From the NCBI GenBank assembly GCA_902728285.1, contig CACVBU010000910.1, forward strand, positions 1,120,157-1,184,156: a stretch of DNA of 64,000 bases. Reading direction: 5' to 3'. Shown here one piece after another: positions 2,523-59,200 of this stretch. Below the pieces are notes generated by a model. It was not told where the DNA came from. It made no database searches and saw only the letters and a list, made by a program, of their open reading frames with translations. Numbering within the stretch: the first letter of the stretch is position 1; each line of letters starts with the position of its first letter. Source of the DNA: Clytia hemisphaerica (lineage: Eukaryota > Cnidaria > Hydrozoa > Leptothecata > Clytiidae). A program made the position numbers and the translations under genes.

Positions 2523-5500
2523 GACAAGGTGAGGTCTCTTTACCGAGCTAACTTCAAAGATGGAGAAGGCTACGATTTATCGAAAAGGTAAACGATTCTT
2601 CTACTATATGGTTGTTTATTTTATTTTATACTGGGTATCGTTTTTAATTCCGTTGTTATGGCTGAAAAACCCATTTTATTTACGAAAAATTTCTTCAATA
2701 TTACTAGATCAAGTTTTGGGTTGGAAATAAAATTAACTTTAGAAACTACAATACAATGTAGCAAGTCAAAGTAGTGTCACAATTGCTTTGTAATTGAAAA
2801 AAGCGTCTTTAATAGGTATAGGGGTTTACGTAAGCTACTTTTAAAAAATGCGTAATTTTGTTGGCAATTTTGTAATATTTCAAACTTACAGGCTTTTACT
2901 AAAATCACTGTGCTTTATTTTTAAATTAATTTCACACATTAAAATTTATAGAGAATGGTCTAAGGTGCCTAAATAATATCTGGTTAAATAAACTTAGTTA
3001 CATTACATCCTTAACCGTTTTGTTGCGTTTTTTGGCCGATCTGGTACAATATGATTCACATCGAAGCAAATATTAATATTAAAAGGTTTAAGTCAAGGTT
3101 TTCAGTCAAACAGACTGAAGGGCTAGATGCTAATGAATTGAATTGACTTTTAGATTTATTCATACCACCAACCTTGAGCTGCATCTATCACGCAAGCCAT
3201 CCTCGAACAAGGAAAATTTACAGACGAGAGAGAGATAAAAGGTATTATAGAAAATTAGTTCTTTGCAACGGAAAGCTATCATGTAACTTTCAACAAACCG
3301 GTTCTTTCTATTAAAAAGGTTTAGGAGACAGTAAAATTATTTGACTAGTTTATACGAAAACAAGGATGCGGTTTTAAATTGAATTCCATACTCTCCAGAA
3401 CAAAAATTTAAATCAGATCTTCTTAATAAATAAATAAAAGGGAAGTCCCTATAAAGGAGGGGGCGTACGGGATATCGGTACATCGGTATTGGCCGTTTTT
3501 TAGATCGGTAAATCGGTATTACAGGAAAGAAATGATCGGTACTCAGTATTTCAAAATCATCTCGGTATCGGTAAAGGACCTATTTTTTTGTCGGTATTTC
3601 GGTATTTTTCGTCAACCATCGGTATGGAAAGATCATGAGCCATTGCGCCCCAAGATCAAATTATGTGAGATAAATTTTAAAATCTTGCAATTTTTTTCGC
3701 TCCCCTCGCTCGCAATGAAGTTCTTTCACAATCTACCAATACACTCTTATCGAAATGCATAAGTAAGCATTGCAGGCCTCGTTTTCAAATATTGTTGCCT
3801 AAGTAACTCAACGTCATTTGACATGTAATTATCTTTTGTAAATGTGCGTGCATTTGTTTTAAAACTGATAACTTCCTTTTTGGAATGCATTTACGTCTAC
3901 GTAAATTGAATGTTGAATAATTATTCTGCTTGCGAACGAGGCCAGCAATGCTTTCTCGAGAAGAGTGTATTTGGCGAACACAAAAATTTAAAACAAAAAA
4001 TTTAATCTTTTTTTGCTCGCTTAGCTCGCACTAGCTTCTTCGATATCTTCTTGATAAGTATCAAATTCATAGCTTTTTTAGAGTTTATGTTATTTGGTTG
4101 ACTTTCAAATATTTTCTATTTGGCCAAAGCCTCCTTTACTATTCGAATATATGAACGATATGTTCTGAGCGCTGATCTACTAAATAATCCCTCCCTCATA
4201 CGTAAATTAGTGCAAATTAAGGAACACTCAGGGGCGCCGATTTGAAAAATCATTGCTGCAATTTTGATAAGGCAAGAGGCTCAGCCAGGGGTCTGCTTGA
4301 CACGTGAATACAGTTGACGCTCTCTAAATTGACGTTCTACTCTTTGATAAGCTCCCATTTTTGATCCATTGGCGTTTTGACAGGGGGCCACGCCTCCCCA
4401 AGTTGAGCTATTTTGAACGCCAAAATCTTGAAATATTCATAAACTGTAATTGATCGCCCCCCACCAAAGAAAAAAATAATTGACCAAATAGGTCAAAGTT
4501 TTCCCAACAGAATGTGAAGGAGTTTGTAGTTTTTGTGACCTTTTTCTGGCTAACTTTGACCTTGCTTAGAGCAAAAATTTAATCTGAAAAAACTTTCTCT
4601 GAAAATTTCCCCTAAAAAAGGTCAAAATTTTTCCAATCTCGCCCCCCCCCCCCCCGAAACGAAAACTCGTGGCTACGCCTCTCCTAGACTTTACTCAATC
4701 CATCTCGATGAACAATGTCGCAAATTTTTCTTGCTCGCTTCACTCGCATTTCCTAAATGTTTCAAAAATGACCTAAATTCTAAGTTGAAATTACGGTATA
4801 CCATTTCGACCAAAAGGGGCGCCAGAATAAGCCTACAAGGGGGCACCTACTTTTGCTCACCAGCCTGTACCTACCCAACACGCTACAGTTTGTAATAGTT
4901 ATAGAGAATTTTGGATGATGAAAAATCCGACCTTTATCGTCCACACATACCAAGTACCCATTTTTGCCTAAGTACCTAAAAAATTGGGAAAAATTATCGG
5001 TATATCGGTATTACGAAGTCCCGTACGCCCCCCACTATAAAGAATGTCTCCAAGTTGTCTAAACCCTTCATTAACATAACCTTATAACACTACTAGTCTC
5101 CATAACTCTAACAAACCTGCGATTCGCCTACTTGCTTTTGTTATGGAAACTTCACTGTAACATCAATGGTTTTTTCATTAATGGTCGTTATAAAATGCTA
5201 TTTGGATATTTTTTTTCTTCAAAAATTTAGCTCAACATAGTATTGATTACATTTACATTGTACTATGATTTTCAGTTAAAAACAAAATCTATTTTTCAGC
5301 ATGCTGTCGCAGATATTATGAAACAAAAAAGAAAGAACAAAAGAAACTGCTAATGGATGATGATGAACGTGAAAAAATGGAAAAATACCAGCGTCGCTAT
5401 TCAAGAAGAGACAGGGTGAGTTGCCTGACATTCAGTATTTTGTTGGTTACAAAGAAGCAGTCTTAAAATTTGAATTTTTACGCCCAAGGAGAATTAAAAA

Positions 5501-5813
5501 GTCACTTTCTATTAAAACTTTTGTTTTTCATTGATAGCTTTACAAAAGTCGGAACAAACAAGTCAACGCATTAAAGGAGCAGATCGGGCCAGATGTCTTT
5601 CACTTGTGGACGACGACAGCATGTCCCGAGCTGATGAGCGACGAGGAGAGTGATTTGGATAACGAAGAGGTGCTCGTCCGCAGATCGCCACCTTGGAGAG
5701 ATCCAACTCTTACTAATCTTATTTGTAACCTACCAATTAAACGGGGAGGCACAAAAAAACGGAGAATTTTAGGCCAACCCAGTACTCGCTTCCCACCGGG
5801 CCACAAAAGTTAA
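2523..5813 (+). CDS. Unidentified basic/acidic gene, three 3' exons
   Basis: Coding exons read as 2523-2587, 5313-5415 and 5538-5813 (stop TAA 5811-5813), with acceptor and donor sites at each junction and matching phases (2, then 0). Exon 5313 could instead begin at 5300, but only the later AG keeps phase with the first exon. The product is Lys/Arg-rich (RYYETKKKEQKKLL, EKYQRRYSRRDR), then has an acidic segment ELMSDEESDLDNEE and a segment RRSPPWRDPTLTNLI before a basic tail. The MSDEE...SPPWR pattern resembles a C-terminal module I associate with uncharacterised cnidarian proteins; no function is known to me. A polyadenylation signal AATAAA lies at 5923-5928. Upstream exons and start codon were not found; the large intron carries a hAT-type element. 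Confidence 0.55.
3457..5034. mobile_element. Non-autonomous hAT-like element, 1.58 kb
   Basis: The ends are GAGGGGGCGTACGGGA at 3457 and TGGGGGGCGTACGGGA (complement) ending at 5034. They are flanked by identical 8-bp CTATAAAG at 3449-3456 and 5035-5042. An 8-bp target duplication and G-rich terminal repeats of this style are typical of hAT elements. Subterminal ATCGGTATATCGGTATT-like words are repeated at both ends. The interior has no transposase-like frame. It sits in the intron of the preceding gene. Confidence 0.75.
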
Positions 5814-5829
5814 CTCTCAAAAGTTTTCT

Positions 5830-6860
5830 TTCTTTTTTTTTCAATTGTATTTTTACTGTTTTTTAACTATTAAGCTTGTAACTTTTTAAACTTAAAGTTT
5901 GCAGAAATTCTATCATGAAGACAATAAATTGCAACTTTTAAATTAAAACTGCTTCTTTCCATGTTTTTTAAGTGATTTCCAGCTGTAAAAGTCGCTGAGA
6001 GATTTTATAATTTATGTATTGCCATGAAGTGCAACTTTTTTAGAACTTTTAAGTCTTTCTAAATTCTTCCTGGGTATTCCCAAATTATTTGTGATGCCTT
6101 CCATTTAATGATATCCTCGGTTATTACAAATTTCTGGAGTGATTTCAAATACACCAGCTGGAATCTTTAAACGTGTAAACATAAGAAAACTGTAGTAATC
6201 GACCATTATTCGTAAACTCTTTCGACTGTAGAACGATGAGATAATCGTATAAGTATTAATAATCGTATATTTTATCAATATAACAGCTGGAATCGTCAAT
6301 TCTGTAGTCAATAGTAAAATGTAGTAATCGACCCGTATTCGTAAAATCCATATTAACTATTAAATAAGGGCATAATCGTAAAAGTTAAACTAGCTTATTT
6401 GTTATTATAGTTATGGCATATTCGGAGATAAAAAATATGAATATGGAAAGTAAAAATATTCCGTTTTGAACTTGAAAAATTACGAAGAATTACGCAAACG
6501 CCATATTTGAAGATCATTGATTTTTTCGATTACTTCGTATAATCGCACGATGGGTTATTTTTTCTTATTTGGCACGCCCTCAAAGAGAGCAATTAATCGT
6601 TAATTGCATTCTGTAGAGAGCAATTAATCGTTAATCACACTCTCCAATGCGGCGCCAATGTTTACAAAATTGATTTTAATGATTTTTCTTACATTTTTTT
6701 TGCATCGAACGTTTTAATTGCATTCGAAATTTTTTTGTGAGAAAGAAAATCAATAAACAACAATAAAAGAAAGAGAAAAAGAGAAGAGAAAAATATAAAA
6801 CTCTCAGTGTAATTTCTGTGATTTACTTTCCTAACTGGGAAAAAGTAGTGACAGCCATTG
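5830..6860. other. Non-coding AT-rich stretch with partial direct repeats
   Basis: No gene is seen. Two imperfect direct copies of a CAGCTGGAAT...GTAGTAATCGACC...TATTCGTAAA segment lie at ~6157-6220 and ~6286-6350. Two copies of AGAGAGCAATTAATCGTTAA lie at ~6583 and ~6616. Confidence 0.5.
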
Positions 6861-6862
6861 TG

Positions 6863-7006
6863 CGATTAGCTCGTAATCACATAATAACTTGTACAATTCA
6901 AAAATTGCACTCGTGATTTTTTTGTTTCGAATTTAATAACAAAAAAATCACTCGTGCAATTATATTCGAATTGCACTCGTTATCATGTGATTACATATAC
7001 TAATCG
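6863..7006. repeat. 144-bp imperfect palindrome
   Basis: Sequence from CGATTAG at 6863 is mirrored by CTAATCG ending at 7006. The arms share TAATCACAT, AATTGCACTCGTGATTTTTT and its complement near the centre (AAAAAATCACTCGTGCAATT). This is a small fold-back/MITE-like sequence directly left of the small-gene array. Confidence 0.6.
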
Positions 7007-7240
7007 TGAACATTCGAGTCTTTTTATGTTTGAAAACAACTATATGTTTTGCAGTGTTTGATTGGTATTTTTATGCATTACTTCGTTATTCGTAACTGTT
7101 TCTTTATGTAGTGTTTTGTAATTGTACAGTTTATTTATGTCATAGTAATATATTTAATGTATGTTAGATCTTTATTTTTAACTGCAAATGGCTTATTTTT
7201 TATTTCACACGCATTTTATCAGATTTTATATATTTTACGT

Positions 7241-7329
7241 AAAAAACGAAAACGAAAGTGAAATAATTCAATGTCAAAAAAAGGCCTCTCAGTGAAAAGA
7301 GTTAGTAATTTTCATAATGGTCACGTGAC
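7241..7329 (+). promoter_or_regulatory. ISRE/IRF-like block plus CACGTG E-box upstream of A1
   Basis: AACGAAAACGAAAGTGAAA (7245-7263) matches the GAAANNGAAA pattern bound by interferon regulatory factors. It is followed by CTCTCAGTGAAAAGAG (7287-7302) and a CACGTG E-box at 7322-7327, 83 bases before the A1 ATG. The same arrangement recurs at 9064-9148. A role as promoter is inferred from recurrence and position. Confidence 0.5.
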
Positions 7330-7409
7330 CTATTTTGGAAAAATCTTCTTCTGACCATATATTTCATCTTCGTTTCTTTTTTTCTTTTATACAAAAAAAA
7401 ATTAAAAAA

Positions 7410-7577
7410 ATGAACCAAGAACAAGACCAAGAATCAGAACAAGACCATGTCACCATGTTCCTGGATGACTTAGAGGAGGTGGGGCTTGACGTGATGTCGC
7501 CTCGTAAATTTTGTATGGGGCTGTTTGTGGAGTTTTTTGTTGTGATTGTGGTTCTGCTGATTTGGTATCTTTGTTAG
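7410..7577 (+). CDS. A1: small tail-anchored membrane protein, family A (55 aa)
   Basis: ATG 7410 to TAG 7577. Residues 1-28 are Gln/Glu/Asp-rich (MNQEQDQESEQDH, then FLDDLEEVGLDV). Residues 37-54 form one hydrophobic segment (LFVEFFVVIVVLLIWYLC) that ends at the C-terminus, so a tail-anchored topology is predicted. There is no signal peptide. A Cys precedes the membrane segment and another is the last residue. The start was chosen as the first ATG in frame after the ISRE/E-box block; the frame extends upstream without another ATG. I recognise no family. The degraded sister A2 lies at 9185. Expression is not shown by the sequence. Confidence 0.5.
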   Translation: MNQEQDQESEQDHVTMFLDDLEEVGLDVMSPRKFCMGLFVEFFVVIVVLLIWYLC

Positions 7578-7650
7578 TGTCACTTTTTAGATGTTGGATG
7601 TTGGTATTTGTAGTTACCATGCAATGTAATGTACCCAGGGCCACCTAAAT

Positions 7651-7920
7651 ATGTCCGATCCTGCGGTCCTGTTTCTTCCTCCTGCTCCTTGTGTCCTTCC
7701 TCCCGTTCCTGTTGCTTTGCCTCCTGTTTCTGCTGTCGTCCTGCCTGATATTTTTCTAAATGTACCTGCTTTTCTTCCTCCTCCTATTCCTGATGTTGTT
7801 CCTGTTTTCGTTCCTGTTGTTGTTCCTGTTGATAATGTAAATAGGCAATTTCGTCCTCCTTCTTCTCCTTGTAAGTGTCCTGGTTGTCTTGGTACATTTT
7901 TAATTGTTTTACTTACTTAA
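7651..7920 (+). CDS. B1: small proline-rich protein, family B, membrane tail frameshifted
   Basis: ATG 7651, 89 codons. The body is a Pro/Val/Leu-rich run of PPVPV- and PAFLPPPIPDVVP-like units, followed by the family's conserved block QFRPPSSPCKCPGCLGTFLI. Compared with B2, a 4-bp TTAC duplication at ~7911-7918 shifts the frame and truncates the transmembrane tail after LIVLLT; the sequence for the rest of the tail survives downstream out of frame. The leader CCACCTAAATATG is shared by all three B copies. There is no separate ISRE block between A1 and B1, so B1 may be transcribed with A1. Function unknown; probably a decaying or soluble variant. Confidence 0.5.
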   Translation: MSDPAVLFLPPAPCVLPPVPVALPPVSAVVLPDIFLNVPAFLPPPIPDVVPVFVPVVVPVDNVNRQFRPPSSPCKCPGCLGTFLIVLLT

Positions 7921-8164
7921 TGTTGTGATTTTGATTAGCATTTTTTATGCATTACTTCGTTATTCGTAACTGTTTCTTTATGTAGTGTTTTGTAATTGTA
8001 CAGTTTTTATGTCATATATATAGCTAATTTTTATTATATTTAACTACAAAGGTATATTTTTGTAAATTTTGTAGAATAGAAAGAAAGAAATCAGTAAAAA
8101 TACAGACATATTGCAGTTCTTAATGCCCAGAAAACAAGCTGTCAGTGAAAAGACTTAAATTTCA

Positions 8165-8193
8165 GAGAAAACAAAAGTGAATGTGATCACGTT
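8165..8193 (+). promoter_or_regulatory. ISRE-like block with degenerate E-box upstream of C1
   Basis: GAGAAAACAAAAGTGAATGT followed by GATCACGTTA, 65 bases before the C1 ATG. Compared with the copies at 8582, 11394 and 11636, the E-box has lost its last G (CACGTT). A TCAGTGAAAAGACTT block precedes it, as in the other copies. Confidence 0.45.
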
Positions 8194-8257
8194 ATCTGTT
8201 TAATACAATATTTCTTTATTTTGCTCTATTTTTTAGATAAACAATTCAAAATAAAAA

Positions 8258-8437
8258 ATGGAAAATGCTATAGTTGTACATCTAGATTATACAGACAATA
8301 TTGTTGATGCGGCATCCTGTTGTTCCTGTTTGTGCTGTGTTTGGTGGTATGTTTTGTTGTGTTATGGTTTTTTCCTGATTGTTGAAATGTTGGTATTTGT
8401 TATTTATTTTATAGGTTATGTCTTAGACACTTTTTAA
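8258..8437 (+). CDS. C1: small Cys-rich membrane protein, family C (59 aa)
   Basis: ATG 8258 to TAA 8437, 59 residues. The N-terminus is MENAIVVHLDYTDNIVDAA, then SCCSCLCCVWW, then a long hydrophobic run to the C-terminus (FFLIVEMLVFVIYFIGYVL). It has the same plan as families A and B: a short cytosolic head, Cys next to the membrane, and a hydrophobic tail. A possible splice acceptor (CTATTTTTTAG at ~8226-8236) just upstream suggests a 5'UTR intron. The truncated paralogue C2 at 11491 starts with nearly the same residues. No known family recognised. Confidence 0.45.
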   Translation: MENAIVVHLDYTDNIVDAASCCSCLCCVWWYVLLCYGFFLIVEMLVFVIYFIGYVLDTF

Positions 8438-8581
8438 TGTAAATTTTTCAATAGTTTTGTATGTTTTGTAAATATTTATATGGGAAGAACTCCTCTAAAG
8501 TCAACTAAAATTGAGGTTTTCAAGTTTTCTATTTGTCAAAAAAAAACACGCTCTCAGCTAAAAGACTTTCTCTAAAATTTT

Positions 8582-8612
8582 GAGAAAACGAAAGTGAAAG
8601 TGATCACGTGAT
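8582..8612 (+). promoter_or_regulatory. Composite ISRE-like/E-box element upstream of B2
   Basis: GAGAAAACGAAAGTGAAAGT then GATCACGTGA: three GAAA-type half-sites in register directly abutting a palindromic TCACGTGA E-box, 95 bases before the B2 ATG. The spacing to ATG is identical for B3. This is the best-preserved copy of the shared upstream module. Confidence 0.55.
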
Positions 8613-8704
8613 TTTCTTCTAAATGTTGTATTTCTATATTATCTTTTTTATTTTACAGATAATTAAAAAAACTACATATCATGTAATGTAAATGCCACCT
8701 AAAT

Positions 8705-8914
8705 ATGTCTGATCCTGTGGTCCTGTTTCTTCCTCCTGCTCCTCGTGTCCTTCTTCCCGTTCCTGTTGTCGTTCCTGTTGATAATGTAAATGTACAGTTT
8801 CGTCCTACTTCCTCTCCTTGTAAGTCTCCTGATTGTGTTGGTACATTTTTAATTGTTTTACTTAATGTCGTGATTTTGATTGGTATTTTTTATGCATTAC
8901 TTCGTTATTCGTAA
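8705..8914 (+). CDS. B2: small proline-rich tail-anchored protein, family B (69 aa)
   Basis: ATG 8705 to TAA 8914. Layout: MSDPVVLFLPPAP head, a short Pro/Val run (much shorter than in B1 and B3), conserved VNVQFRPTSSPCKSPDCVG, then a hydrophobic C-terminal segment (TFLIVLLNVVILIGIFYALL) ending RYS. No signal peptide, so tail-anchored. The Cys-x3-5-Cys before the membrane could be lipidated or bind metal; this is inference. This is the only B copy with the complete tail and is the reference for the family. A TTTTTTATTTTACAG acceptor-like site at ~8644-8658 hints at a 5'UTR intron. Confidence 0.55.
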   Translation: MSDPVVLFLPPAPRVLLPVPVVVPVDNVNVQFRPTSSPCKSPDCVGTFLIVLLNVVILIGIFYALLRYS

Positions 8915-9063
8915 CTGTTTCTTTATGTAGTGTTTTGTAATTGTACAGTTTATTTATGTCATAGTAATATATTTAATGTATATTTAGATCTTTATTTTTA
9001 ACTGTAAATAGCTTATTTTTTATTTCACACGCATTTTTTTATCAGATTTTATATATTTTACGT

Positions 9064-9148
9064 AAAAAACGAAAACGAAAGTGAAATAATTCAATGTCAA
9101 AAAATGGCCTCTCAGTGAAAAGAGTAATTTTAATAATGGTCACGTGAC
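9064..9148 (+). promoter_or_regulatory. ISRE-like block plus E-box upstream of degraded A2
   Basis: Duplicate of the A1 upstream region: AACGAAAACGAAAGTGAAA at ~9067-9086, CTCTCAGTGAAAAGAG, and CACGTG at 9141-9146. It is retained although the downstream A2 frame has lost its ATG. Confidence 0.5.
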
Positions 9149-9184
9149 TTAATTTGGAGAAATCTTCTTCTGACCATATATTTC

Positions 9185-9323
9185 AACCAAGAATCAGAAC
9201 AAGACCATGTCATTATATTCCTGGATGACCTAGAGGAGGTGGGGCTTGACGTGATTTTGTATGGTGCTGTTTGTGGTGTTTTTTGTTGTAATGGTGGTTC
9301 TGCTGATTTGGTATCTTTGTTAG
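9185..9323 (+). pseudogene. A2: degraded copy of family A
   Basis: Aligns with A1 from its second codon (AACCAAGAATCAGAACAAGA) to the TTTGTTAG stop region. The start codon and a few upstream codons are missing. A ~14-bp deletion removes the part encoding SPRK, so the membrane segment is read in another frame. The acidic part FLDDLEEVGLDV is intact. Confidence 0.6.
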
Positions 9324-9411
9324 TGTCACTTTTTAGATGTTGGATGTTGATATTTGTAGCTATTTTTTATTATATTTAACCTCAAAGGTATATTTTTGTA
9401 AATTTTGTAGA

Positions 9412-11253
9412 TACCGGGTGTCCCAGAAAAAAGTTCCGCTCTTTGAAGTGAATTTTCTCGAGTTCTATAAATTTTTAAATAATGAATATTTTTGCATTGG
9501 AAAGAGGAAGGATAAACTTAAATTTTGAGGGGTCATTTATGAAATTAAGTAAACTTGATCAAAAGTTATAGCCTAAATGCTAAAACATCACTTTTCAAAA
9601 AAGTCAAAAAAAGACGTAAAAAGAGGAGATCAAATCATCATAAAGAAAGCACTTCTTTTGCCAATTTATTTACGCTCAAAGTTTTTTCCATGCAGTTCTT
9701 TAAGGTGTCTTTATTTTATTGTTAATTCCTTTTCTTTTCTTTGTCCAATTTAACGAGTTCCCATGGGCACAATCAAGGGGCACGATGCTTTTTCGAGCTC
9801 CAAACATTCATCAAAATCTTACAAATAGTTTCCAAAGCTTTTTGTGTATACATTGTTGAGAGTGAGAAGGAAAAAGCTTGTATCGAGTGTGTTGAGAAAA
9901 ATGCCTCGCCTAACTATTCCACAAAGAACTTGGGTGTGTATTGAGTTTACACGCACAAAGAATGCCGCAGAAGTACTGACACGATGGCCTAACCAATGGC
10001 CCAATGTTCCTCCTCCGACAAGAGAAGTCATACTCAAAAACTTTCAAAAATTTGGTAGAGAAGGAACTTGCCACAACCTCAACAAAGGTCGAAGCGGCAG
10101 AAGGGTCACTGTCATGACGCAAGCGAACAAAAATATGGTTAGAAGATCTTTACAGCAAAATGGTCGTCGTTCTTGTCGAAGGAACGGGGTGCACCTTACT
10201 CGATCCACTTTCAATCGAATCGTCAAGGAAATAAAATTTCATCCTTACGTGTTGGTAAAGAAGCAAAAACTAAAAAATCAGGATCCAGCAAGAAGATTAA
10301 CCTTTTGCAACTGGTTCAGAAATATGAATAATGCAAATTTTTTATCAAATTTGATCATTTCTGACGAGGCAATTTTCAGCATGAACTCTGATGTGAATAC
10401 TCGTAATGTTATTTACTATTCTGAACATGGTCAAGGGCATCCCGATGACCACTATGTGGAGTTTGAGCAAGGGGCGGATCAGGTGATGGTTTGGCTGGGC
10501 TTAACAGGAAATGGATTAGTGTTGGGTCCACATTCTGTTCAGGGAAGGTTGGATACAAGGGAATATATGAGAATCGTGCGTTATAATGTCATTCCACAAG
10601 ACTTCGTGAGGCTTGGGATCAATAGGGCAACGTCTTGGTGGATTCAAGATAGAGCGACTCCCCACACGAGCGACTCCCCACACAAGCAACGCTTCACTGC
10701 GCTATCTTCGTGGTCAGTTTCCAAGAAAGGTGGTCAGCAATAGAGGAGATGTTGAGTGGCCCCCAAGATCGCCTGATCTCACTGTATCTGATTTCTTTTT
10801 GTGGGGTTACATGAAACAGCAGATCTGGGAACAACCCGAAAATTGGTAACCTCCGACCCTTTCAATCAATTGAAAGCTTTAATTAGAAATGTTGCAGCTA
10901 ACCTCGACCCTCAAATGGTTCGAAATGCTTTCGCAGCAATGATTAATCGTGTAAATAAGTGCTTTGGAAAATATGGAAATACATTTCCTGATGAATAAAA
11001 AACTTTTTGTGTATTTGTCTTAAAATGAATTTAATCCCCTCTTTTTTCGTCTTTTTTTGACTTTTTTGAAATGTGATGTTTTAGCATTTAGGCCAAAACT
11101 TTTGATCAAGTTGACTTAATTTAATAAATGACCCCTCTAAATTTAAGTTTATCCTTCCTCTTTCCAATGCAAAAAGATTCAATATCTAAAAGTTCAGAGA
11201 ACTCGAGGAAATTCACTTCAAAGAGCAGAACCTTTTTTCTGGGACACCCGGTA
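9412..11253. mobile_element. Mariner-type (Tc1/mariner/IS630) transposon in the small-gene array
   Basis: Terminal inverted repeats begin CCGGGTGTCCCAGAAAAAAG at 9414 and mirror the right end at 11251; similarity extends >45 bases (through GAACTCGAGAAAATTCACTT-like sequence). TA target duplications are at 9412-9413 and 11252-11253. The uninterrupted sister site near 8076 (TTTTGTAGAATAGAAAGAAA) shows the empty target, so insertion followed the tandem duplication. Length between the TAs is 1838 bp. Related solo ends lie at 26504-26560 and, more divergent, at 36008 and 37321. Confidence 0.9.
9901..10996 (+). pseudogene. Mariner-type transposase, frameshifted
   Basis: Starts at ATG 9901 (MPRLTIPQRTWVCIEF). 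The N-terminal helix-turn-helix region (VILKNFQKFGREG, then GRSGRR) resembles the DUF4817-type head of insect and cnidarian mariner relatives. Catalytic motifs: first Asp in LIISDEAIFS, second Asp in WWIQDRATPHT, third Asp in WPPRSPDLTVSDFFLWGYMK. A 16-bp tandem duplication (CGACTCCCCACACGAG at ~10655-10686) and a second shift near 10840 (after WEQP) break the frame; the C-terminus resumes as LVTSDPFNQLKALI and ends at 10996-10998. The element encodes no full-length enzyme. Confidence 0.85.
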
Positions 11254-11393
11254 GAAAGAGAGAAATCAGTAAAAATACAGACATATTGAAGTTCTTAATG
11301 GCCAGAAAACAAGCTGTCAGTGAAAAGACTTAAATTTCAGATAAAACCAAAGTGAAAGTAAATTTGAAAGTGTCAAAAACACGCTCTCAGCCA

Positions 11394-11426
11394 AAACGAA
11401 AACAAAAGTGAAAGTGATCACGTGAC
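11394..11426 (+). promoter_or_regulatory. Composite ISRE-like/E-box element upstream of C2
   Basis: AAAACGAAAACAAAAGTGAA then AGTGATCACGTGAC (CACGTG 11419-11424), 67 bases before the C2 ATG. A second partial block, CCAAAGTGAAAGTAAATTTG, lies 45 bases further upstream (~11347), so this copy may carry two IRF-like sites. Confidence 0.5.
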
Positions 11427-11490
11427 TTCTGTTTAACACAATATTTCTATATTTTGCTGTAATTTTTAGATAAACAATTCAAAATAAAAA

Positions 11491-11553
11491 ATGGAAAAAG
11501 CTATAGTTGTACATATAGATTATACTATATTTATATGGGAAGAACTCCTCTAA
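11491..11553 (+). pseudogene. C2: truncated copy of family C (20 codons)
   Basis: ATG 11491 gives MEKAIVVHIDYTIFIWEELL then stop. The first 12 residues match C1. A deletion of about 190 bases relative to C1 fuses the head to what is the 3' flank in C1 (TTTATATGGGAAGAACTCCT), removing the Cys cluster and the membrane segment. Confidence 0.6.
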
Positions 11554-11635
11554 AGTCAACTAAAATTGATGTTTTCGAGTTTTCTATTTGTCAAAAAAAA
11601 ACGCTCTCAGTTAAAAGACTTTCTCTAAAATTTTG

Positions 11636-11665
11636 AGAAAACAAAAGTGAAAGTGATCACGTGAC
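11636..11665 (+). promoter_or_regulatory. Composite ISRE-like/E-box element upstream of B3
   Basis: GAGAAAACAAAAGTGAAAGT followed by GATCACGTGAC, CACGTG at 11658-11663, 95 bases before the B3 ATG, the same distance as for B2. It is preceded by CGCTCTCAGTTAAAAGACTT as in the other copies. Confidence 0.55.
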
Positions 11666-11757
11666 TTTCTTCTAAATCTTGTATTTCTATATTATTTTTA
11701 TTTTACAGATAATTAAAAAAACTACATACCATGTAATGTACCAATGGCCACCTAAAT

Positions 11758-12072
11758 ATGTCTGATCCTGTGGTCCTGTTTCTTCCTCCTGCTCCTCGTG
11801 TCCTTCCTCCCGTTCCTGTTGCTCCGCCTCCCGTTCCTGCTGTTGTCCCTGCTGTCGTCCTAGCTGATATTCTTCTAGATGTCCCTGCTTTTCTTCCTCC
11901 TCCTATTCCTGATGTTGTTCCTGTTGTCGTTCCTGATGATAATGTAAATGTGCAATTTCGTCCTCCTTCCTCTCCTTGTAAGTGTCCTGATTTCCTTGGT
12001 ACATTGCTGTTAACATTTCATTTATTTATTTATTCATATTTCATTTTTTATAACAAACAAATGTACGGATAA
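11758..12072 (+). CDS. B3: small proline-rich protein, family B, with replaced tail (104 aa)
   Basis: ATG 11758 to TAA 12072. Head MSDPVVLFLPPAP and the longest Pro/Val/Ala-rich run of the family, then conserved VNVQFRPPSSPCKCPDFLGT. After that the sequence departs from B2 at the DNA level. The new tail (LLLTFHLFIYSYFIFYNKQMYG) is encoded by an AT-rich repeat-like stretch yet is still strongly hydrophobic. The Pro-rich core varies between copies by in-frame units while head, Cys block and hydrophobic tail are kept, which suggests selection on a membrane-linked Pro-rich protein. Function unknown. Confidence 0.5.
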   Translation: MSDPVVLFLPPAPRVLPPVPVAPPPVPAVVPAVVLADILLDVPAFLPPPIPDVVPVVVPDDNVNVQFRPPSSPCKCPDFLGTLLLTFHLFIYSYFIFYNKQMYG

Positions 12073-12274
12073 TGGGTCCTAGGACCTTTTAGTATGATAT
12101 ATATATATAGATAGATAGCTCTATTTAATTCACAAGAAAGATAACGTCGATGAAACTGACAACTGGCACCGCAGCAAGTGCAACCAGTTGCTTACACTTA
12201 AACGATGATTCGTGTGCTGTGGAATTATTCAAGAAGGAAAATTCAAATCAGCAGAATGGCAAAAAGTTGAACAG

Positions 12275-12483
12275 TTTTTCAATCTAACTATAACTATCAA
12301 CCTCACCAGCAAGAGATTGAGCGGTATATGGTTGACCGATACAACAGAGAAAGTGCGGAGCAAAAGAACACTGATCCGGAACACAAGAAGTACCACAAAA
12401 TGCTTGATGAAGCAAGTCATTACTTTCGCAAGATACAACAATTAAAAACAATATGGTTTGAGTTAAGGATTTTTAAATTTTAA
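12275..12483 (+). pseudogene. Orphan coding fragment (probable transposon-derived exon)
   Basis: A frame opening after a TTGAACAG acceptor-like site reads cleanly as QQEIERYMVDRYN, then EHKKYHKMLDEASHYFRKIQ, and stops at 12483. Its composition is clearly coding-like, but it has no start and I recognise no family. Adjacent fragments (12634-12827 and the R2-like piece) suggest a graveyard of mobile-element exons. Confidence 0.35.
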
Positions 12484-12633
12484 CTTCTGTTGCCTCTTTA
12501 ATTTTCCAAAGTGAGATCACTCATATTGTTATTTTTCAATTGTCTTATCTTCCAACTGTGCTTCATCGAGCACCTGATGACTGTTTGATTGACTGTGTTT
12601 CAATAGTAATCTAACTTTTGTTCTACTTATAAG

Positions 12634-12827
12634 AACATCATGAAACTTTGCTTGATGGCCATTGCCCGAATAAGTTATTAAAGCACAACTCCTGGACAGC
12701 AGAAGAATGGCAAATATTTGCTTATCCAGTAGCAGCGATTTTTTTCTTTGAAAAAGTACCAGAACAGGAATATCATCTCATAATCGATTTTTTCAAACTT
12801 AAAATACATTGTAAAATATTTTTTTAA
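12634..12827 (+). pseudogene. Orphan coding fragment resembling cnidarian transposase-like proteins
   Basis: After a TTCTACTTATAAG acceptor-like site the frame reads LLDGHCPNKLLKHNSWTAEE, then EWQIFAYPVAAIFFFEKVPE, and ends at TAA 12827. The HNSWTAEEWQIFAYP pattern resembles a segment seen in large uncharacterised transposase-like cnidarian proteins (family not named with confidence). No start or further exons seen. Confidence 0.35.
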
Positions 12828-12888
12828 TCAAAATTATGTTTAACAAATATATTGAAAAGTAATAATTCGTTATAAACAAAGATAACTT

Positions 12889-14274
12889 GTGCGGAAAAAA
12901 CGTCTTCATTCATTGACCCCCGGATTTTTCATTAATATCATTAATAATGATATGTTTGTCACATCAACTGAACAGGATACTCAACTATTGCTGAATGTAT
13001 TAACTAAATGGTGTAACTGGGCAAACCTGATTGTCAGAGTTGATAAATGCGTTACCTTCGGTATCAAGAAAAACGGTTCAACATCAGCTCAATTCAAACC
13101 TTATCTTCGTATACTAAACGAAATGGTACCTGCAGTTAAAATTGGTGATAAATTTACATATCTTGGAAAGGACTTTTCATTTGATATGAGCACAAGTAAA
13201 GTGAAAGAGGAGCTAATCTCAGAGATGAACAAGTGCGTTGACACCATAAACCGTCTTCCAATTCATCCGAGAAATAAATTGCTTATTATATCGAGATATG
13301 TATATAGCAAAATGCGCTGGACATTTTCGATTTACAAACTTTCAACAACTTGGGTGATACAGAATCTAGACTCTATAGTGAAAGAGTACACAAAACGTTG
13401 GCTCAGATTACCCCAGAGTGCAAATACCAGACATCTTTACCTCCCAGTCAAGAAACTTGGTATGAAATTTATGTTACCATCTGATTGCTACAAATCAAGT
13501 CAGTTGACTACTCGTAATATCCTGAAAGAATCCGCCAATCCTGAAATTCGCAATCTTTACCAGTTAACAGCACAGAAACACATCGAGATAGATACCCTGC
13601 TTCATCTGAAAAAACCGAAACAACCGAAAGATCGTCTTGTCAACAAAACCGTCGAAAAGATTTTAAACGATATGAATGTTTTAAAAGAACAGAACACGAT
13701 AATGAATCAGGTTGCTCAGGAATGCTCTGTCAGTGCCATCAGTCAATGGCAAACCGTTTGCGAAAAGCTCCCAACTAACATCTTCGTTTTCGTTAGAAAA
13801 GCAATCATTCTTCAACTAGCGAACAACACCAATTTATTTCGATGGAAAAAGATCCAATCAAACCTTTGTGGATTATGTGTCAACAATAAGCAAACCCAGT
13901 TACATATCTTCAATAATTGTTTGTTTGCTTTAAATGGTGGAAGATTCACATGGCGTCACGATTCTATTCTGTTCACAATGTGTCACTATTTGAAACTACT
14001 TGAGAATATGGGCTTTGAACTTTTTGCAGATCTTGATGGATTCCGAAATCCAGCTGAATTCTTTGATGGACCACGCCCAGATATCTTATTAAAGATAGGA
14101 AATGAACTTAATGCAATTGAGATCAATACCACACGAATGATGCTTAAAATGTCTGAAGTAGCAATTAGAAGCTCTCATTTTATTTATTGTAGACGAAATA
14201 GTATTGAATGGGAAAACCCTGATATACTTAAATTTATTGATATATTTTTAAAATTAATTTTGACGATAACATAG
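12889..14274 (+). pseudogene. R2-type non-LTR retrotransposon, 3' half (RT end, CCHC, restriction-like endonuclease)
   Basis: A 461-codon frame without a convincing start; it begins inside the reverse transcriptase. NNDMFVTSTEQDTQLLL stands where the FADD box should be, so the catalytic Asp pair is degraded or cut off. Downstream is CGLCVNNKQTQLHIFNNC, which fits C-x2-C-x8-H-x4-C of R2-clade proteins exactly. It is followed by GPRPDILL and ELNAIEINTT, the PD...(D/E)xK core of a restriction-like endonuclease. This places it in the R2/NeSL/Hero group that uses a site-specific endonuclease. The copy is 5' truncated, as is usual for LINEs, but the visible part has no stop until 14274. Confidence 0.75.
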
Positions 14275-36040: not shown

Positions 36041-36174
36041 AATTTGATATTGCAGGCAGGGTTTCCCCGAAAAAGAAGACCTTGAAGCGCAATTCAAGCA
36101 AAATCGAATGCGCCGGGGTTTTTGCCCCTCGTTTCCAAACAAAAACAAAAACAAACAAAAATTTTCAAATAGAA

Positions 36175-36858
36175 ATGGAGAATGTAAATGAGACCAAACA
36201 AAAGTTCACAAGAAAACCGAACTTCTCAGCAGATGAAACACGAGTCCTACTGGACTCTTACAAAGATATCCTTGAAGGAAAATTTTCAAATGCTCTAACA
36301 CAACAAAACAACAACGAATCATGGCAAAAAATAGCCAGCAACGTTAATGCTGTTGGGGTAACCCCTCGTACGATTGCTAGTATACAAACCAAATTTAAAA
36401 ACATTAAATCTGAAGCAAAGTTTGCTTATAACAAATTCAAGAGACATCAAAATGGCACTGGTGGTGGTGGTCCTCCACCAAAAGAACCGTCTTCATCAGA
36501 CCAGAGAATAATTAGTTTATTCGAAGGGCGTCCCTCTTTTGAGGTCCTCCATGGTTTTGCATCAAACGCACATGAAACTGGTAAGTTTCCTTGTTTTTTT
36601 TTCAATACACTTGCTGGTGATCTTCCTGGTGTGATACTAATTATCCTTGATGTCTTTCTCTACTCCCTCCCACCGGAAAACAAGAGACTAATGAAGCAAT
36701 CAGCTAATTATAATTCTAAGATAATAGTTTCCAAATTATTTATTTTTACAGAAATCGGATCTTATTCAACGTCAATGATGAGTGAGGTATCAGCAGACCC
36801 AATGCTTTCATCGACCGCTCTTATGGGTCCTCAAGATAAAACTAACGAAACAATTTAA
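36175..36858 (+). CDS. Myb/SANT-like DNA-binding protein, copy 1
   Basis: ATG 36175 (MENVNETKQKFTRKPNFSAD). Exon 1 ends at 36580 (donor GTAAGT); exon 2 is 36752-36858. Residues ~10-90 form a Myb/SANT-like trihelix domain of the type in NAIF1/MSANTD and Harbinger-associated proteins: NFSADETRVLLDSYKDILEG, NESWQKIASNVNAVG, then IQTKFKNIKSEAKFAYNKFK. A Gly/Pro linker follows (GTGGGGPPPKEP). The 171-base intron is in frame and open in this copy, so a retained-intron product of ~225 residues is possible. After the stop, a coiled-coil-like frame (ELAIQKARRKGERFRNKNLL, 36965-37080) survives in another frame, so the protein has lost its normal C-terminus. Confidence 0.65.
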   Translation: MENVNETKQKFTRKPNFSADETRVLLDSYKDILEGKFSNALTQQNNNESWQKIASNVNAVGVTPRTIASIQTKFKNIKSEAKFAYNKFKRHQNGTGGGGPPPKEPSSSDQRIISLFEGRPSFEVLHGFASNAHETGKFPCFFFNTLAGDLPGVILIILDVFLYSLPPENKRLMKQSANYNSKIIVSKLFIFTEIGSYSTSMMSEVSADPMLSSTALMGPQDKTNETI

Positions 36859-37484
36859 AAAACTACGAAAGGAAAACAGAAAGCCACAGCACCCAAACAA
36901 GGGAAGTCAGTAATCAAACGCTTGAAGCTAACTGCAAATAAGAAAATTCAGAAAAAATGTTCTTCAAGAACTTGCAATACAAAAAGCTCGTCGGAAAGGC
37001 GAGCGCTTCAGAAACAAAAACCTTCTTTTGAAAGAAAGAAACCTTCGACGAGAGGACGAAATTCTAACCGTCCAAAAAAAATTGCGAATCACTTTGCCCT
37101 AAATACTGGCTCGAAAGGCATTGGTCTCCTCCAAAAACAACGATTGACGCGCGACTTGTATCTATAAAGTATATAAAATAAGTTCATGAGATTTTTTGTG
37201 CATTCTTCTTTTCTTTTTTCTTTTCTTTTTCTTTTTTAAAATATTAAATAATACCCCAAAACTTTTCAAAGGTATGGAAAGCCGTTGCCTCTCCATCTAT
37301 CTTTGTTACATTTAACTCAATACCGGGTGTGCCAGAAATAGGTTACCCTCTTTAATTTGATATTGCAGGCAGGGTTTCCCCGAAAAAGAAGACCTTGAAG
37401 CGCAATTCAAGCAAAATCGAATGCGCCGGGGTTTTCCCTCGTTTCCAAACAAAAACAAAAACAAACAAAAATTTTCAAATAAAG

Positions 37485-38169
37485 ATGGAGAATGTAAATG
37501 AGACCAAACAAAAGTTCACAAGAAAACCGAACTTCTCAGCAGATGAAACACGAGTCCTACTGGACTCTTACAAAGATATCCTTGAAGGAAAATTTTCAAA
37601 TGCTCTAACACAACAAAACAACAACGAATCATGGCAAAAAATAGCCAGCAACGTTAATGCTGTTGGGGTAACCCCTCGTACGATTGCTAGTATACAAACC
37701 AAATTTAAAAACATTAAATCTGAAGCAAAGCTTGCTTATAACAAATTCAAGAGACATCAAAATGGCACTGGTGGTGGTGGTCCTCCACCAAAAGAACCGT
37801 CTTCATCAGACCAGAGAATAATTAGTTTATTCGAAGGGCGTCCCTCTTTTGAGGTCCTCCATGGTTTTGCATCAAACGCACATGAAACTGGTAAGTTTCC
37901 TTGTTTTTTTTTTCAATACACTTGCTGGTGATCTTCCTGGTGTGATACTAATTATCCTTGATGTCTTTCTCTACTCCCTCCCACCGGAAAACAAGAGACT
38001 AATGAAGCAATCAGCTAATTATAATTCTAAGATAATAGTTTCCAAATTATTTATTTTTACAGAAATCGGATCTTATTCAACGTCAATGATGAGTGAGGTA
38101 TCAGCAGACCCAATGCTTTCATCGACCGCTCTTATGGGTCCTCAAGATAAAACTAACGAAACAATTTAA
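37485..38169 (+). CDS. Myb/SANT-like DNA-binding protein, copy 2 (tandem duplicate)
   Basis: ATG 37485, exons 37485-37890 and 38063-38169; same protein as copy 1 except Leu for Phe in SEAKLAYNKF. The intron is 172 bases, one T longer, so retention here would break the frame. Copy 2 keeps the original 3' flank: after the out-of-frame coiled coil (KERNLRREDEILTVQKK) a further frame NLHLEISLMKGNILYVEPD continues to a stop at 38474, which copy 1 has lost to the duplication junction. The same premature end (NETI stop) is in both copies, so decay of the 3' part predates duplication. Confidence 0.65.
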
Positions 38170-56200: not shown

Positions 56201-59200
56201 ATTTACACAGAAACTGCTAAACTGCATATGATTTCAGGAAACAAGTAATGATGACAATTAATCATGAGTGATTCATTTATTTGTTTTGTTTTGAGTGAAC
56301 TCAAATGATTTTCTTAATGTTATGGGATTACATCCTAATGTGTAGTTATTTAGGATGTTGGATTGTGTTCATTGAAGTTAATGACCTCTGTCACCCTCTC
56401 AGCAATTATGTATGATCCTAAACAATGCAATTTTTCTTGTTCAATAATATGTTAATATGTACCCCAACAGTCTCTGTAGTCGAAATGATTGAGTTGGCTA
56501 AGCAACAGTTTGTTTGATATTGATAAATGGGTGCAAATTGAATAAGTATTATGAAATGCATAAGTCTAAAGTGATTCAATTAGAATAGTATACATTGAAA
56601 AAAAAAAGTTTGATTGAGTAAATGAAAATATCTAAGTTTAGTATGCAAATTATACAAAAATGAAAATTCCAAGATGGCTGCCAAGACCACAATGGCTGAA
56701 CTAAACCTAACCTAACCTAACAGTGCTGCACTCCCGCTGCACTGCAGTACAGGGACTGCCTATCTTGTTCACCCCCTAAAAGAACAGTTGCCCCTTACTT
56801 TCATCATTAAATTTTGATGCAAAACATAAAAAGCTTATAAGGTAGCTTTACATAAAGATAGTGTGTTGTGTAATAACTGTGTATACGCCAACGAAAATCA
56901 TAAAAAAGAAATAAGTTTATACCTAAACTACTCTATAAGTAGAATAATAATATTGTGCAAATATGAGTGTCTTAACCAGATTGTTCTTAAATTGCTTTTT
57001 TTGCCATGTGAAAGTAGTTGTGAAAACTCTTGAAAGAGTTAAAAATGTTTTCAGGAAAAAGACAACACAATTATAACATTAGATAGTATATATTGATTGA
57101 ATCATAACATTTGATGCTTTGGTAAGCATCTTAGGGTGTTGATAAAACAGTAATACAAATATTATTTACAGTCATATTCTTACATTCAGTAATTTCTATC
57201 CAACCGAATCTTCCCGGTTTAACATGAAATATGTAGCAATTTCAGCACTTTTATAGACAACGTTCAAATCAAAATATGATGATAAAATAGAACAGAACAG
57301 TTTTTCAAAGTTGTACTAATTCTTTAGTCAAAATGCTAGCATCACAGATTCTTCACCAAAAATATTCCTTTGCTCGTTAAAACTACAAAATGATATGCTG
57401 AGAAAAAGCTATAATATTGTGCTATCTTCAACTATATACAACCACAATTGGATTTTCTTGAGTTCAGCATGTTTCAATGGTGCTCCATATCTGTACACCG
57501 GGCGTCGACTGCCTGTGTCAACTTCAACCATTTGACATCAATTGAACCCAATCTTTGATCATCGGGGTTTGATTAACTAAGGGCTCCTTAATGTATTTTT
57601 ATAAGGATGTAATGTTGTGATATTTTTTTATACCATACTTCGGTACCGGGGATTTATACAATCGAAACAAACAACTACAACTACACGTTTTTTAATTAGA
57701 ACACCTCAATTTTGGCTGAAGCTGGATGTGCTTATTTTCTTGGTAATTTCCAGCCTAACATGTTCATAAACACGTTCTTAATTTTCGTTCAAATTTAGAA
57801 ACTCTAAAAACTGGGGAAATGGCTGCGAATTTTAGTGGTTCCATCTAGTGTCTTATATAGGATATATGTGATATCACTGCAGCAATCAGTAAACCATGAT
57901 TTCAGCTAGATTTATTGCTCTTATTAAACCAATATCAAGTTGAAGTAACTCCACGTTTCGTGCTAAAAGAGGTTTAGTACATCGAGCCATATATATTTCA
58001 GCTCTAGTATAACCAATGTGAGTACATAACCTGCGATTGTCATTAGGGTTCCCATTGTTAAAGACATAAATATCATTATGAGATAGACGTTCTAATATGA
58101 GTATATAGTTAGCTGTTTCAAGTATTCGATTATGTATAACAAGGAATGTTATGATTTTCAGTGAACCAAGATCGATGCGGAGCCAATTTGAATATTCCAT
58201 GCCCGTGTGACAAACTGGAACGTCGGGTCCATATGTTCCATCTGTACAAATTGAACCAGGCCTGATCACATTTGAAGAAGTTGACATTGATACAGTTTTA
58301 TGTAGGGCCATGTTATCTACAAAGAAATGAAATTTGACATACCGTACTACATGGCTAGGGTCTCTTACTAACAAGAAGGTGTTATAGTTTCCAACCTCAG
58401 CAGGCTTTCGATTTTCTTTCACGCACTTTTTTTCATAAAATCTTTATCAAATTTCTCACGATACTACACTTTTTTTAATAAGCAACCACAGGTTGGGAAG
58501 ACTGGAGGGCTCAAATTTAGCTTCTTGGATGATCTAAAGGTGCTCTTGGCCTAATAACCATGAAATATGGTATAATATCAGGGATGGTCAAAGCAAATTT
58601 TTCAAAAAATGAGCTAGAATGCCAAGCAACCCCTAGACTGACCCGAAAATTGGAGTTTCCTATAAAAAGTGTAGCTTGTTAGACGAATACTGCTTTTTTA
58701 TTTCGCAATAGATCACTTAGTTGGTTGATGGGAATGTACTGGTTAAAATGAGACCATTTTGTGATTTTCATGAGAAAATTTATGTATAAACTGTTTACAA
58801 GTCACGGAGAGACGGTAACAACAACACTTGTTTTATAAGAAAGCCAGATATTAAACTTGACTTGAGCACTGAGTGATTGTGTTTTGTGCGTACAAAAGAC
58901 TGCTTTACTGTATTTATTTATTTTAAAGTTGAAGTCACCTAGTAACCTACCTGTCAGTTCGAACATACAACACCCTTACAGTGTATTTTGGGAAGCCTGA
59001 AAAACTTTGGGATTGCATCTACGTTACCTCGCTTTACATTGAGTTTTATTGTATTAGAAACCTACCTGTAAGTTCGAACATACAATGTTCATCGTAGGTT
59101 TGAAACGGACAAACACACTCGTGAGTTCCATTTTGATAATCAGGAATACATTTATGGTTTGGATTGATGCATGTCTCATCCCATTCACAATCATGCTAAA

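Follow-up and report, generated by a model that had tools for sequence, protein, structure and literature searches.

Clustered small genes with putative membrane-anchored products share an IRF-type composite promoter in the hydrozoan Clytia hemisphaerica

The interferon-stimulated IFITM proteins of vertebrates are small membrane effectors encoded in clusters under promoters of the interferon-stimulated response element (ISRE) type. Here, we describe an array of small genes in the hydrozoan Clytia hemisphaerica, located in a 64-kb stretch of DNA (the window; contig C628, positions 1120157-1184156, of a 417.4-Mb assembly in 951 contigs), that resembles this arrangement. Like IFITM, the predicted products are small, probably membrane-inserted and carry a Cys beside the membrane, and the genes are clustered under GAAA-repeat promoters of ISRE type. 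Unlike IFITM, they have one hydrophobic segment and several distinct heads, and Pfam scans at E up to 1 found no CD225 domain in them, which leaves them outside the IFITM/dispanin family. The 20-base block in their promoters shares GAAA repeats with AAGTGA units with positive regulatory domain I (PRDI) of interferon-beta and the ISRE (PMC7819612). Unlike those elements, it is coupled to GTCACGTGAC and has an additional element, box 1, upstream. Among cnidarians, poly(I:C)-responsive genes of Nematostella have TATA-enriched promoters with IRF-type motifs among others; those genes are largely canonical antiviral ones (PMC8476169), whereas the hydrozoan genes considered here encode small membrane proteins without matched relatives. 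The Alr genes of Hydractinia are likewise clustered, diversified hydrozoan membrane genes accompanied by pseudogenes, but they encode immunoglobulin-superfamily proteins (PMC11067881), and no such domain was found in the proteins of 45-125 amino acids (aa) described here. If regulated as we infer, the Clytia genes would work like an interferon-stimulated membrane effector set.

The array in the window is one cluster among many in the genome. A 31-base composite of the IRF-type block and CACGTG (GAAAACGAAAGTGAAAGTGATCACGTGACTT) was matched 55 times (34 + 21) at up to three mismatches, on 18 of the 951 contigs, against 0 + 0 matches of the reversed sequence used as control. The possibility, raised in an earlier sequence-only reading of this stretch, that the block might be found equally often elsewhere was not borne out for the composite, whose association with the genes was confined to the same strand. 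Box 1 (CTCTCAGCCAAAAGACTTAGTAA), which corresponds to no element known to us, gave 138 genome matches against 2 in the control. The promoters precede genes for at least six protein types of about 45-125 codons:
A: acidic head, LDVMS, KKYC
E: YERQAA, RKYC; absent from the window
B: proline/valine head, SSPCKCPDC
C: MENAVVVH
D: MDQNNNVPAV
MDKKMLKK type: a single member

Three families described earlier as unrelated are thus part of a larger set. The multi-family nature of the array stood, and "unrelated" proved too strong genome-wide, because A is distantly related to E (K33 and L50 of A1, the A copy of the window, occur in 18 of 18 aligned members, and C35 in at least 90%).

A typical promoter runs from box 1 through the IRF-type site, an E-box (GTCACGTGAC) and a TATA-like sequence to a pyrimidine tract that ends in AG shortly 5' of the ATG; in hand-chosen upstream regions, the acceptor-like tract with AG was present in 26 of 28 and the TATA-like sequence likewise in 26 of 28. 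The exact block holds two AAGTGA units and three GAAA at six-base spacing (GAAAACGAAAGTGAAAGTGA), exceeding the two GAAA units taken as the minimum for an IRF-type element, so that the match to IRF-binding sites suggested earlier holds for the element, with IRF binding itself predicted from it. Similarity was higher in the block (0.94) than in its flanks (0.35 and 0.40), partly by construction, the sites having been chosen by block similarity; the comparison excluded 17 sites that had no recognised gene. The block alone was rejected as a marker owing to its lack of specificity (3037 genome matches versus 701 for the reversed control, with acidic coding repeats among the exact matches). When 20 stretches of ~10 kb were read around block clusters, 16 contained small-gene arrays and four (L013-L015, L017) none, three of the latter being an acidic coding family. 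This separate clustered family (L013-L015, C195:872000-901900) has an acidic exon with the exact 20-base block, matched exactly seven times on both strands. Short stretches at four further composite sites were also read; they held a C copy with a degenerate B leader (C261), a broken A with the start of a B (C707) and an A-type upstream frame (C635); two modules on C285 had no recognised gene in the 1001 bases read.

Since the array stretches had been picked by the block, the association was also tested starting from the proteins. A search with A at E up to 1 returned 37 matches on 15 contigs, and each of these copies, found by protein alone, fell on one of the 18 module contigs. Within the 600 bases upstream, at least 23 of the 37 had the composite or box 1 on their own strand; among the matches listed, none had either on the opposite strand. 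The B test set comprised 15 copies (41 search rows minus 19 tail-repeat rows and 7 second rows); at least 10 carried either element within that distance in the same orientation, and among the matches listed none carried it in the opposite one. Nine of these ten showed 121-125 bases from module start to match start, and one showed 301. These counts are lower bounds, as 100 of the 138 box 1 positions were listed for use. A protein search with a C copy returned two places, the window copy not among them.

The shared design was assessed by a scan for open reading frames (ORFs) of 36-150 aa with a head of at least 16 residues, a hydrophobic C-terminal segment and an acceptor-like tract. In the 16 array stretches together with the window array, 46 such ORFs were found, of which 39 belonged to recognised types (identical and altered copies counted), while 91.3 kb outside arrays yielded two, neither with a module. 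Block or box 1 lay within 500 bases in 37 of the 39 family ORFs (the stretches having been chosen by block), and in 38 of them a Cys was located between 10 residues before and 3 after the start of the hydrophobic segment, which agrees with the common plan of hydrophobic end and juxtamembrane Cys noted earlier in the window. By hydropathy, the family ORFs have a single C-terminal hydrophobic segment and no N-terminal signal peptide, a shape that the scan itself selected; mostly 0-10 residues follow the segment, with more in one B and in altered copies. The distance from block start to ATG is characteristic of each family, at 121-125 bases in nine B copies, 91-93 in C and mostly 144-146 in D. 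For A, a label that takes in some B rows here, the block was most often 309-367 bases away (111-170 in other copies) and box 1 mostly ~114-131. Two further arrangements were noticed. At C13:157000-166900 (L009), five near-identical ~1.16-kb units each carry a D gene and a 5'-truncated A-type piece, accompanied in most units by a 51-base tandem repeat, and diverged B-like frames (51-68% identity) at C716:1336466-1350627 and C771:198694-199131 have box 1 behind rather than before them in two of three cases.

Consistent with the earlier statement that these proteins had no known description, scans of Pfam, PHROGs and PDB gave no convincing relatives, and a literature search of titles and abstracts found no paper describing these small genes. 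The best Pfam matches, all below cut-off, were a TRP channel family for A/E (E 0.0033, one of 18 members), Asp4 for B2 (0.12) and a zinc ribbon for a longer B (0.021), a poxvirus entry protein family (0.0017) and LITAF-like (0.014) for a C copy, and 0.73 for D. They probably reflect hydrophobic or Cys-rich noise, though the LITAF-like match of C may be worth following. PHROGs gave a best value of 0.022 for six proteins, and PDB gave none for A/E, C1 and D and 0.13 at best for B. A scan of viral contigs with B found no relative, which weakened a viral origin.

Coding constraint was estimated as pN/pS on sets from which two truncated A copies, two altered B copies and any A copy lacking an M[DN] start ahead of LDVMS had been removed. 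In frame, A scored 0.47 (17 sequences) and E 0.44 (5 sequences); the other frames gave 0.78 or more except the mirrored minus-strand frame. Because the sequences had been collected by LDVMS or YERQA, the values were recounted without those columns, giving 0.54 for A (17 sequences; 0.58 in 12 less redundant ones) and 0.49 for E (5) with gaps, and 0.63 and 0.89, respectively, without gaps. A and E are thus under moderate codon constraint. An apparent juxtamembrane constraint in A (0.18) is not leaned on, because the collecting motif LDVMS helped it (0.25 without LDVMS) and the five or six codons behind the motif combined a value of 0.17 with pS above 1. Flanks and coding parts were then compared in 11 pairs, with shuffled sequences as control. 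For A (L016) versus E (L023), similarity was 0.83 over 360 bases upstream (shuffled 0.63) and 0.77 over 300 bases downstream (0.62), and the coding part stood at 0.62 (0.61); A versus E of L012 was less alike (0.75, 0.62, 0.65). B and D were alike upstream (0.77; shuffled 0.64), with coding and downstream parts at the shuffled level, and A versus B was at or near that level throughout. The upstream likeness beside shuffled-level coding parts indicates that some promoters are common to otherwise different coding parts, and such sharing could have arisen either through exchange of sequence close to the acceptor or through rapid divergence of the coding parts.

Within the window, the block was matched seven times at up to three mismatches versus 0.03 expected from shuffles, with all matches in 7242-11656. 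The ORFs A1, B1, C1, B2 and B3 (55, 89, 59, 69 and 104 aa) are where the sequence-only reading had placed them, and the array copies align as direct repeats of up to 137 bases. The features of the array are as follows:
7242..7261, plus strand: IRF-type block of A1, holding GAAAACGAAAGTGA at 7248-7261 (mismatch scan and reading)
7286..7308, plus strand: box 1-like element of A1, ctctcagtgaaaagagttagtaa (by reading; element counted genome-wide)
7322..7327, plus strand: CACGTG of A1, inside ggtcacgtgacc (motif scan)
7410..7577, plus strand: gene A1, 55 aa, with acidic head, LDVMS, K and C, and hydrophobic C-terminal end (ORF list, comparison)
7651..7920, plus strand: B1, broken B copy, ORF of 89 aa (ORF list)
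8167..8186, plus strand: IRF-type block of C1 with two mismatches, followed by CACGTT (mismatch scan and reading)
8228..8236, plus strand: putative acceptor-like tract 5' of C1, ATTTTTTAG (by reading)
8258..8437, plus strand: gene C1, 59 aa, with Cys-rich stretch and hydrophobic C-terminal half (ORF list)
8551..8569, plus strand: box 1-like element of B2, ctctcagctaaaagacttt (by reading)
8584..8603, plus strand: IRF-type block of B2, exact (mismatch scan)
8605..8610, plus strand: CACGTG of B2 (motif scan)
8646..8658, plus strand: putative acceptor-like tract 5' of B2, TTTTATTTTACAG (by reading)
8705..8914, plus strand: gene B2, 69 aa, the shortest intact B, with proline/valine head, SSPCKSPDC and hydrophobic end (ORF list)
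9065..9084, plus strand: IRF-type block of A2 (mismatch scan)
9141..9146, plus strand: CACGTG of A2 (motif scan)
9186..9330, plus strand: A2, decayed A copy, start gone, head and tail in separate frames (sequence comparison)
9414..11251, plus strand: mariner/Tc1-like DNA transposon between A2 and C2, outside the system (inverted repeats, TA at both ends)
11398..11417, plus strand: IRF-type block of C2, with CACGTG at 11419-11424
11491..11560, plus strand: C2, truncated C copy with a stop within ~20 codons (by reading)
11637..11656, plus strand: IRF-type block of B3 (mismatch scan)
11658..11663, plus strand: CACGTG of B3 (motif scan)
11696..11708, plus strand: putative acceptor-like tract 5' of B3, TTTTATTTTACAG (by reading)
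11758..12072, plus strand: B3, 104 aa, native tail lost (ORF list, protein search)

C1 and B2 are the copies in the window in which coding part, block and acceptor are all present. A1 has no upstream acceptor AG, and AG was found before the ATG of its relatives. CACGTG directly follows the block at B2, C2 and B3 and lies ~60 bases further on at A1 and A2, and C1 has CACGTT, so the E-box accompanies the block in every case but C1, as had been noted. The family-specific spacing described earlier also holds, with corrected values. From block end to ATG there are 101 bases for B2 and B3, 71 for C1 and 73 for C2 (ATG at 11491, by reading), not 95 and 65-67, figures that fit a block counted through the E-box. 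The picture of duplication and decay was borne out as well, with A2, B1 and C2 broken. B1 directly adjoins A1 without a promoter of its own, and its tail frame is shifted by a 4-base duplication. Residues 83-104 of B3, or nearly so, match a dispersed repeat, and 19 other places match this tail and nothing else of B. The B leaders (8672-8705, 11725-11758, 7618-7651) carry ATG-TAA start-stop pairs or short upstream frames 5' of the main ATG, for which translational control is possible. The mariner/Tc1-like element has 209-base inverted repeats (91%) and a weak Pfam match below cut-off (E 0.0015). Its transposase frame has a stop at 10743, after a short tandem duplication near 10660.

Taken together, the data argue that this gene system is genuine and out of the ordinary and that its regulatory signature is strong; an immune function is plausible. 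From the coding parts and promoters observed, we tentatively favour, with somewhat less than even confidence, genes for tail-anchored innate effectors under IRF control. An IRF1/2-like factor and an E-box factor would jointly switch the genes on under infection or cell stress. IRF domains gave nine genome matches, paired into five loci (those on C473 and C499 are nearly alike, perhaps alleles). The domain on C797 matched IRF crystal structures at E ~1e-34 and keeps RCxxNS (reading RCAINS), and the others depart from it at one or more residues. R82, C83, N86 and S87 of IRF contact GAAA, and IRF1 affinity follows the number of AAGTGA repeats (PMC7819612). The C797 protein suggests that an IRF able to read GAAA is present in the same genome. 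Poly(I:C)-induced genes of Nematostella have IRF-type motifs and TATA enrichment in their promoters (PMC8476169). The input in the hydrozoan might be a cGLR-STING-IRF route, a guess made because STING is present (two genome matches) and the RIG-I regulatory domain gave no genome match in a search whose control was silent too; RIG-I/MDA5-like receptors were reported in all nine anthozoans surveyed (PMC8260672). The leader would be replaced by spliced-leader trans-splicing, which occurs in hydrozoans (PMC11067881) and is suggested here by an AG 10-50 bases 5' of the ATG that leaves little room for an exon and intron. The acidic or proline-rich head, the Cys at the membrane and the hydrophobic C-terminal end suggest tail-anchored proteins, with the C-terminal end inserted into the membrane and the head in the cytosol. 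The Cys may be lipid-modified, possibly S-acylated, and it is at that membrane that the heads would act, on pathogens or on host partners. In its simplest form, such an effector would be a short motif tethered to the membrane and binding some component of a pathogen or of the host, with gene birth and death supplying copies and variants of it.

Several observations weigh against this interpretation. The RIG-I result is one; moreover, at the sites that were read, no known immune gene stood next to the composite, and the 3-kb stretches around the IRF matches contained one composite site at four mismatches and none closer. PRDM1/Blimp-1 is a repressor whose sites overlap IRF-type sites, and the block fits these too. 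Among the matches listed, neither element lay within 600 bases upstream of 14 of the 37 A copies and 5 of the 15 B copies. The mirrored minus-strand frame scored nearly as low as the true one (0.51 versus 0.47 for A, 0.47 versus 0.44 for E), with which it shares third positions. B showed no frame-specific constraint (0.87 in frame versus 0.82-1.35 elsewhere), the test being uninformative for this family; D had a pN/pS of 1.6 (three sequences, one altered at its end), and the six codons behind the collecting motif gave 0.17 in A, with pS above 1, and 1.66 in E. Certain stretches are almost the same between contigs (L021 on C726 and L024 on C782, 97.3% over 5.3 kb; L016 on C342 and L028 on C885, 98.7% over 1.3 kb) and may be haplotypes, so that copy counts may be inflated. 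Finally, the linkage to a large gene with a DUF6729 domain fits a mobile element as well.

This large neighbour is the basis of the strongest alternative, in which an old family of mobile elements with a transposase-like DUF6729 protein carries the small genes as cargo or accessory genes, and box 1, block and E-box form the element promoter, possibly taken over from the immune control of the host. One family of large frames was represented by pieces in 12 of the 16 array stretches (L011, L018-L028), on the strand of the small genes in 12 of 12; in L024, for example, the large frame at 3786-7556 is followed by blocks at 7668 and 7749. DUF6729 (PF20499) was found in four of seven large frames scanned (E 6e-19 to 2e-66, best 1.5e-66), lying in the large linked gene and not in the small ones. 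Genome-wide, 49 matches merged into 38 loci, on many contigs besides those with arrays. The composite followed 0.5-5.8 kb downstream on the same strand at 15 of the 38, and never on the opposite strand within 10 kb. Box 1 and then two E-boxes precede several large frames, and putative DDE/RNase H-like features and a C-terminal zinc finger were seen by eye. The linkage overturned a view that the units share no mobility-type gene and shifted our confidence toward the mobile element. On the other side, 23 of the 38 DUF6729 loci have no composite downstream, and DUF6729 lies within 15 kb of 8 of the 19 composite clusters, with no match at the other 11, the window's included. The concern that the block lies inside one transposon family may apply to the many arrays linked to this possibly transposase-like gene. 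Diverged large frames (pS above 0.7) keep a pN/pS of 0.18-0.58, so the units are old and kept. No long inverted repeats other than those of the mariner were found at 6500-13000 of the window, B has no relative in the viral contigs, and our literature search found no paper naming DUF6729 or describing its function. The large protein had no PDB match (phmmer, E up to 0.1, L025 frame) and none in NCBIfam. It may serve an old mobile element as a transposase-like enzyme, or it may be the small proteins' partner; under the effector reading, the DUF6729 gene before the module, on the same strand in many arrays, may belong to the same programme. On balance, we regard the mobile-element origin as rather unlikely, though a serious competitor.

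We give similarly low credence to a more elaborate scheme, a two-layer interferon-like or selfish defence system, in which the DUF6729 protein and changing minimal tail-anchored proteins would stand under one composite promoter. This promoter, made up of box 1, IRF site, E-box and trans-splice acceptor, would stay constant as a frame while the coding cassettes set into it diversify or are exchanged, and new membrane effectors would be born under immune control.

Around the large frames, other long frames are ordinary transposon genes (THAP and DDE domains in L016, DUF1759 in L010). DUF6729 copies on C875, C212 and C417 share one score and are perhaps recent duplicates. A U6 snRNA match of 48.2 bits lies at L026:1080-1170 on the plus strand, in antisense orientation relative to the small genes and ~200 bases beyond the last box 1; degenerate U6-like pieces after box 1 were seen by eye in L021, L024 and L023, below the Rfam threshold.

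The small membrane genes could also be genuine and share their GAAA-repeat and E-box promoter for a non-immune programme, such as gametogenesis, stinging cells or lysosome/stress control, with a PRDM1-like repressor or a developmental IRF as the factor. The overlap with PRDM1 sites fits this, and so does GTCACGTGAC, the type of site used by MITF/TFEB/USF factors, as well as the missing association with canonical immune genes at the sites read. We nevertheless consider this explanation unlikely, since three GAAA at six-base spacing with two AAGTGA units form the arrangement tied to IRF1 affinity (PMC7819612), and the genes resemble conflict genes in their high copy number, in the presence of broken copies and in the several types of head found within similar promoter frames. 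That the arrays are non-coding promoter or enhancer repeats amplified by unequal crossing-over, with incidental ORFs, would suit the absence of frame-specific constraint in B and D and the A/E flanks being more alike than the coding parts, but it is very improbable given the in-frame constraint of A and E, the scarcity of such ORFs outside arrays and the retrieval, by protein-only search, of copies sitting in the promoter frame.

Other loci were noted in passing. A gene fragment with a frame resembling a Myb/SANT-type DNA-binding protein is tandemly duplicated at 36043-36858 and 37356-38169 of the window. Minus-strand frames at 57886-58443 and 59642-59974 of the window weakly resemble F5/8 type C (E 0.00077) and PAN (E 0.002), below the Pfam cut-offs. 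The mitochondrial contig C900 (14,551 bases; one direction, TGA read as Trp) closes with a partial cox1 that follows cob and an apparent nad4 end, though the contig may stop there just because the assembly does. For linear hydrozoan mitochondrial genomes, an additional cox1 at one end has been described in Hydroidolina, along with partial copies in Aplanulata and a cob-cox1 transcript contig (PMC4655093), and the arrangement on C900 is taken to be that of a hydroidolinan hydrozoan.

The Clytia arrays bear on whether early animals had an effector programme like that of interferon-stimulated genes, and one promoter sequence here marks a whole unstudied gene set. If the favoured reading is true, they would represent a non-bilaterian, IRF-driven, fast-evolving membrane effector system. 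Were the DUF6729 linkage that of a mobile element instead, they would reveal a transposon family carrying immune-type control together with membrane proteins.

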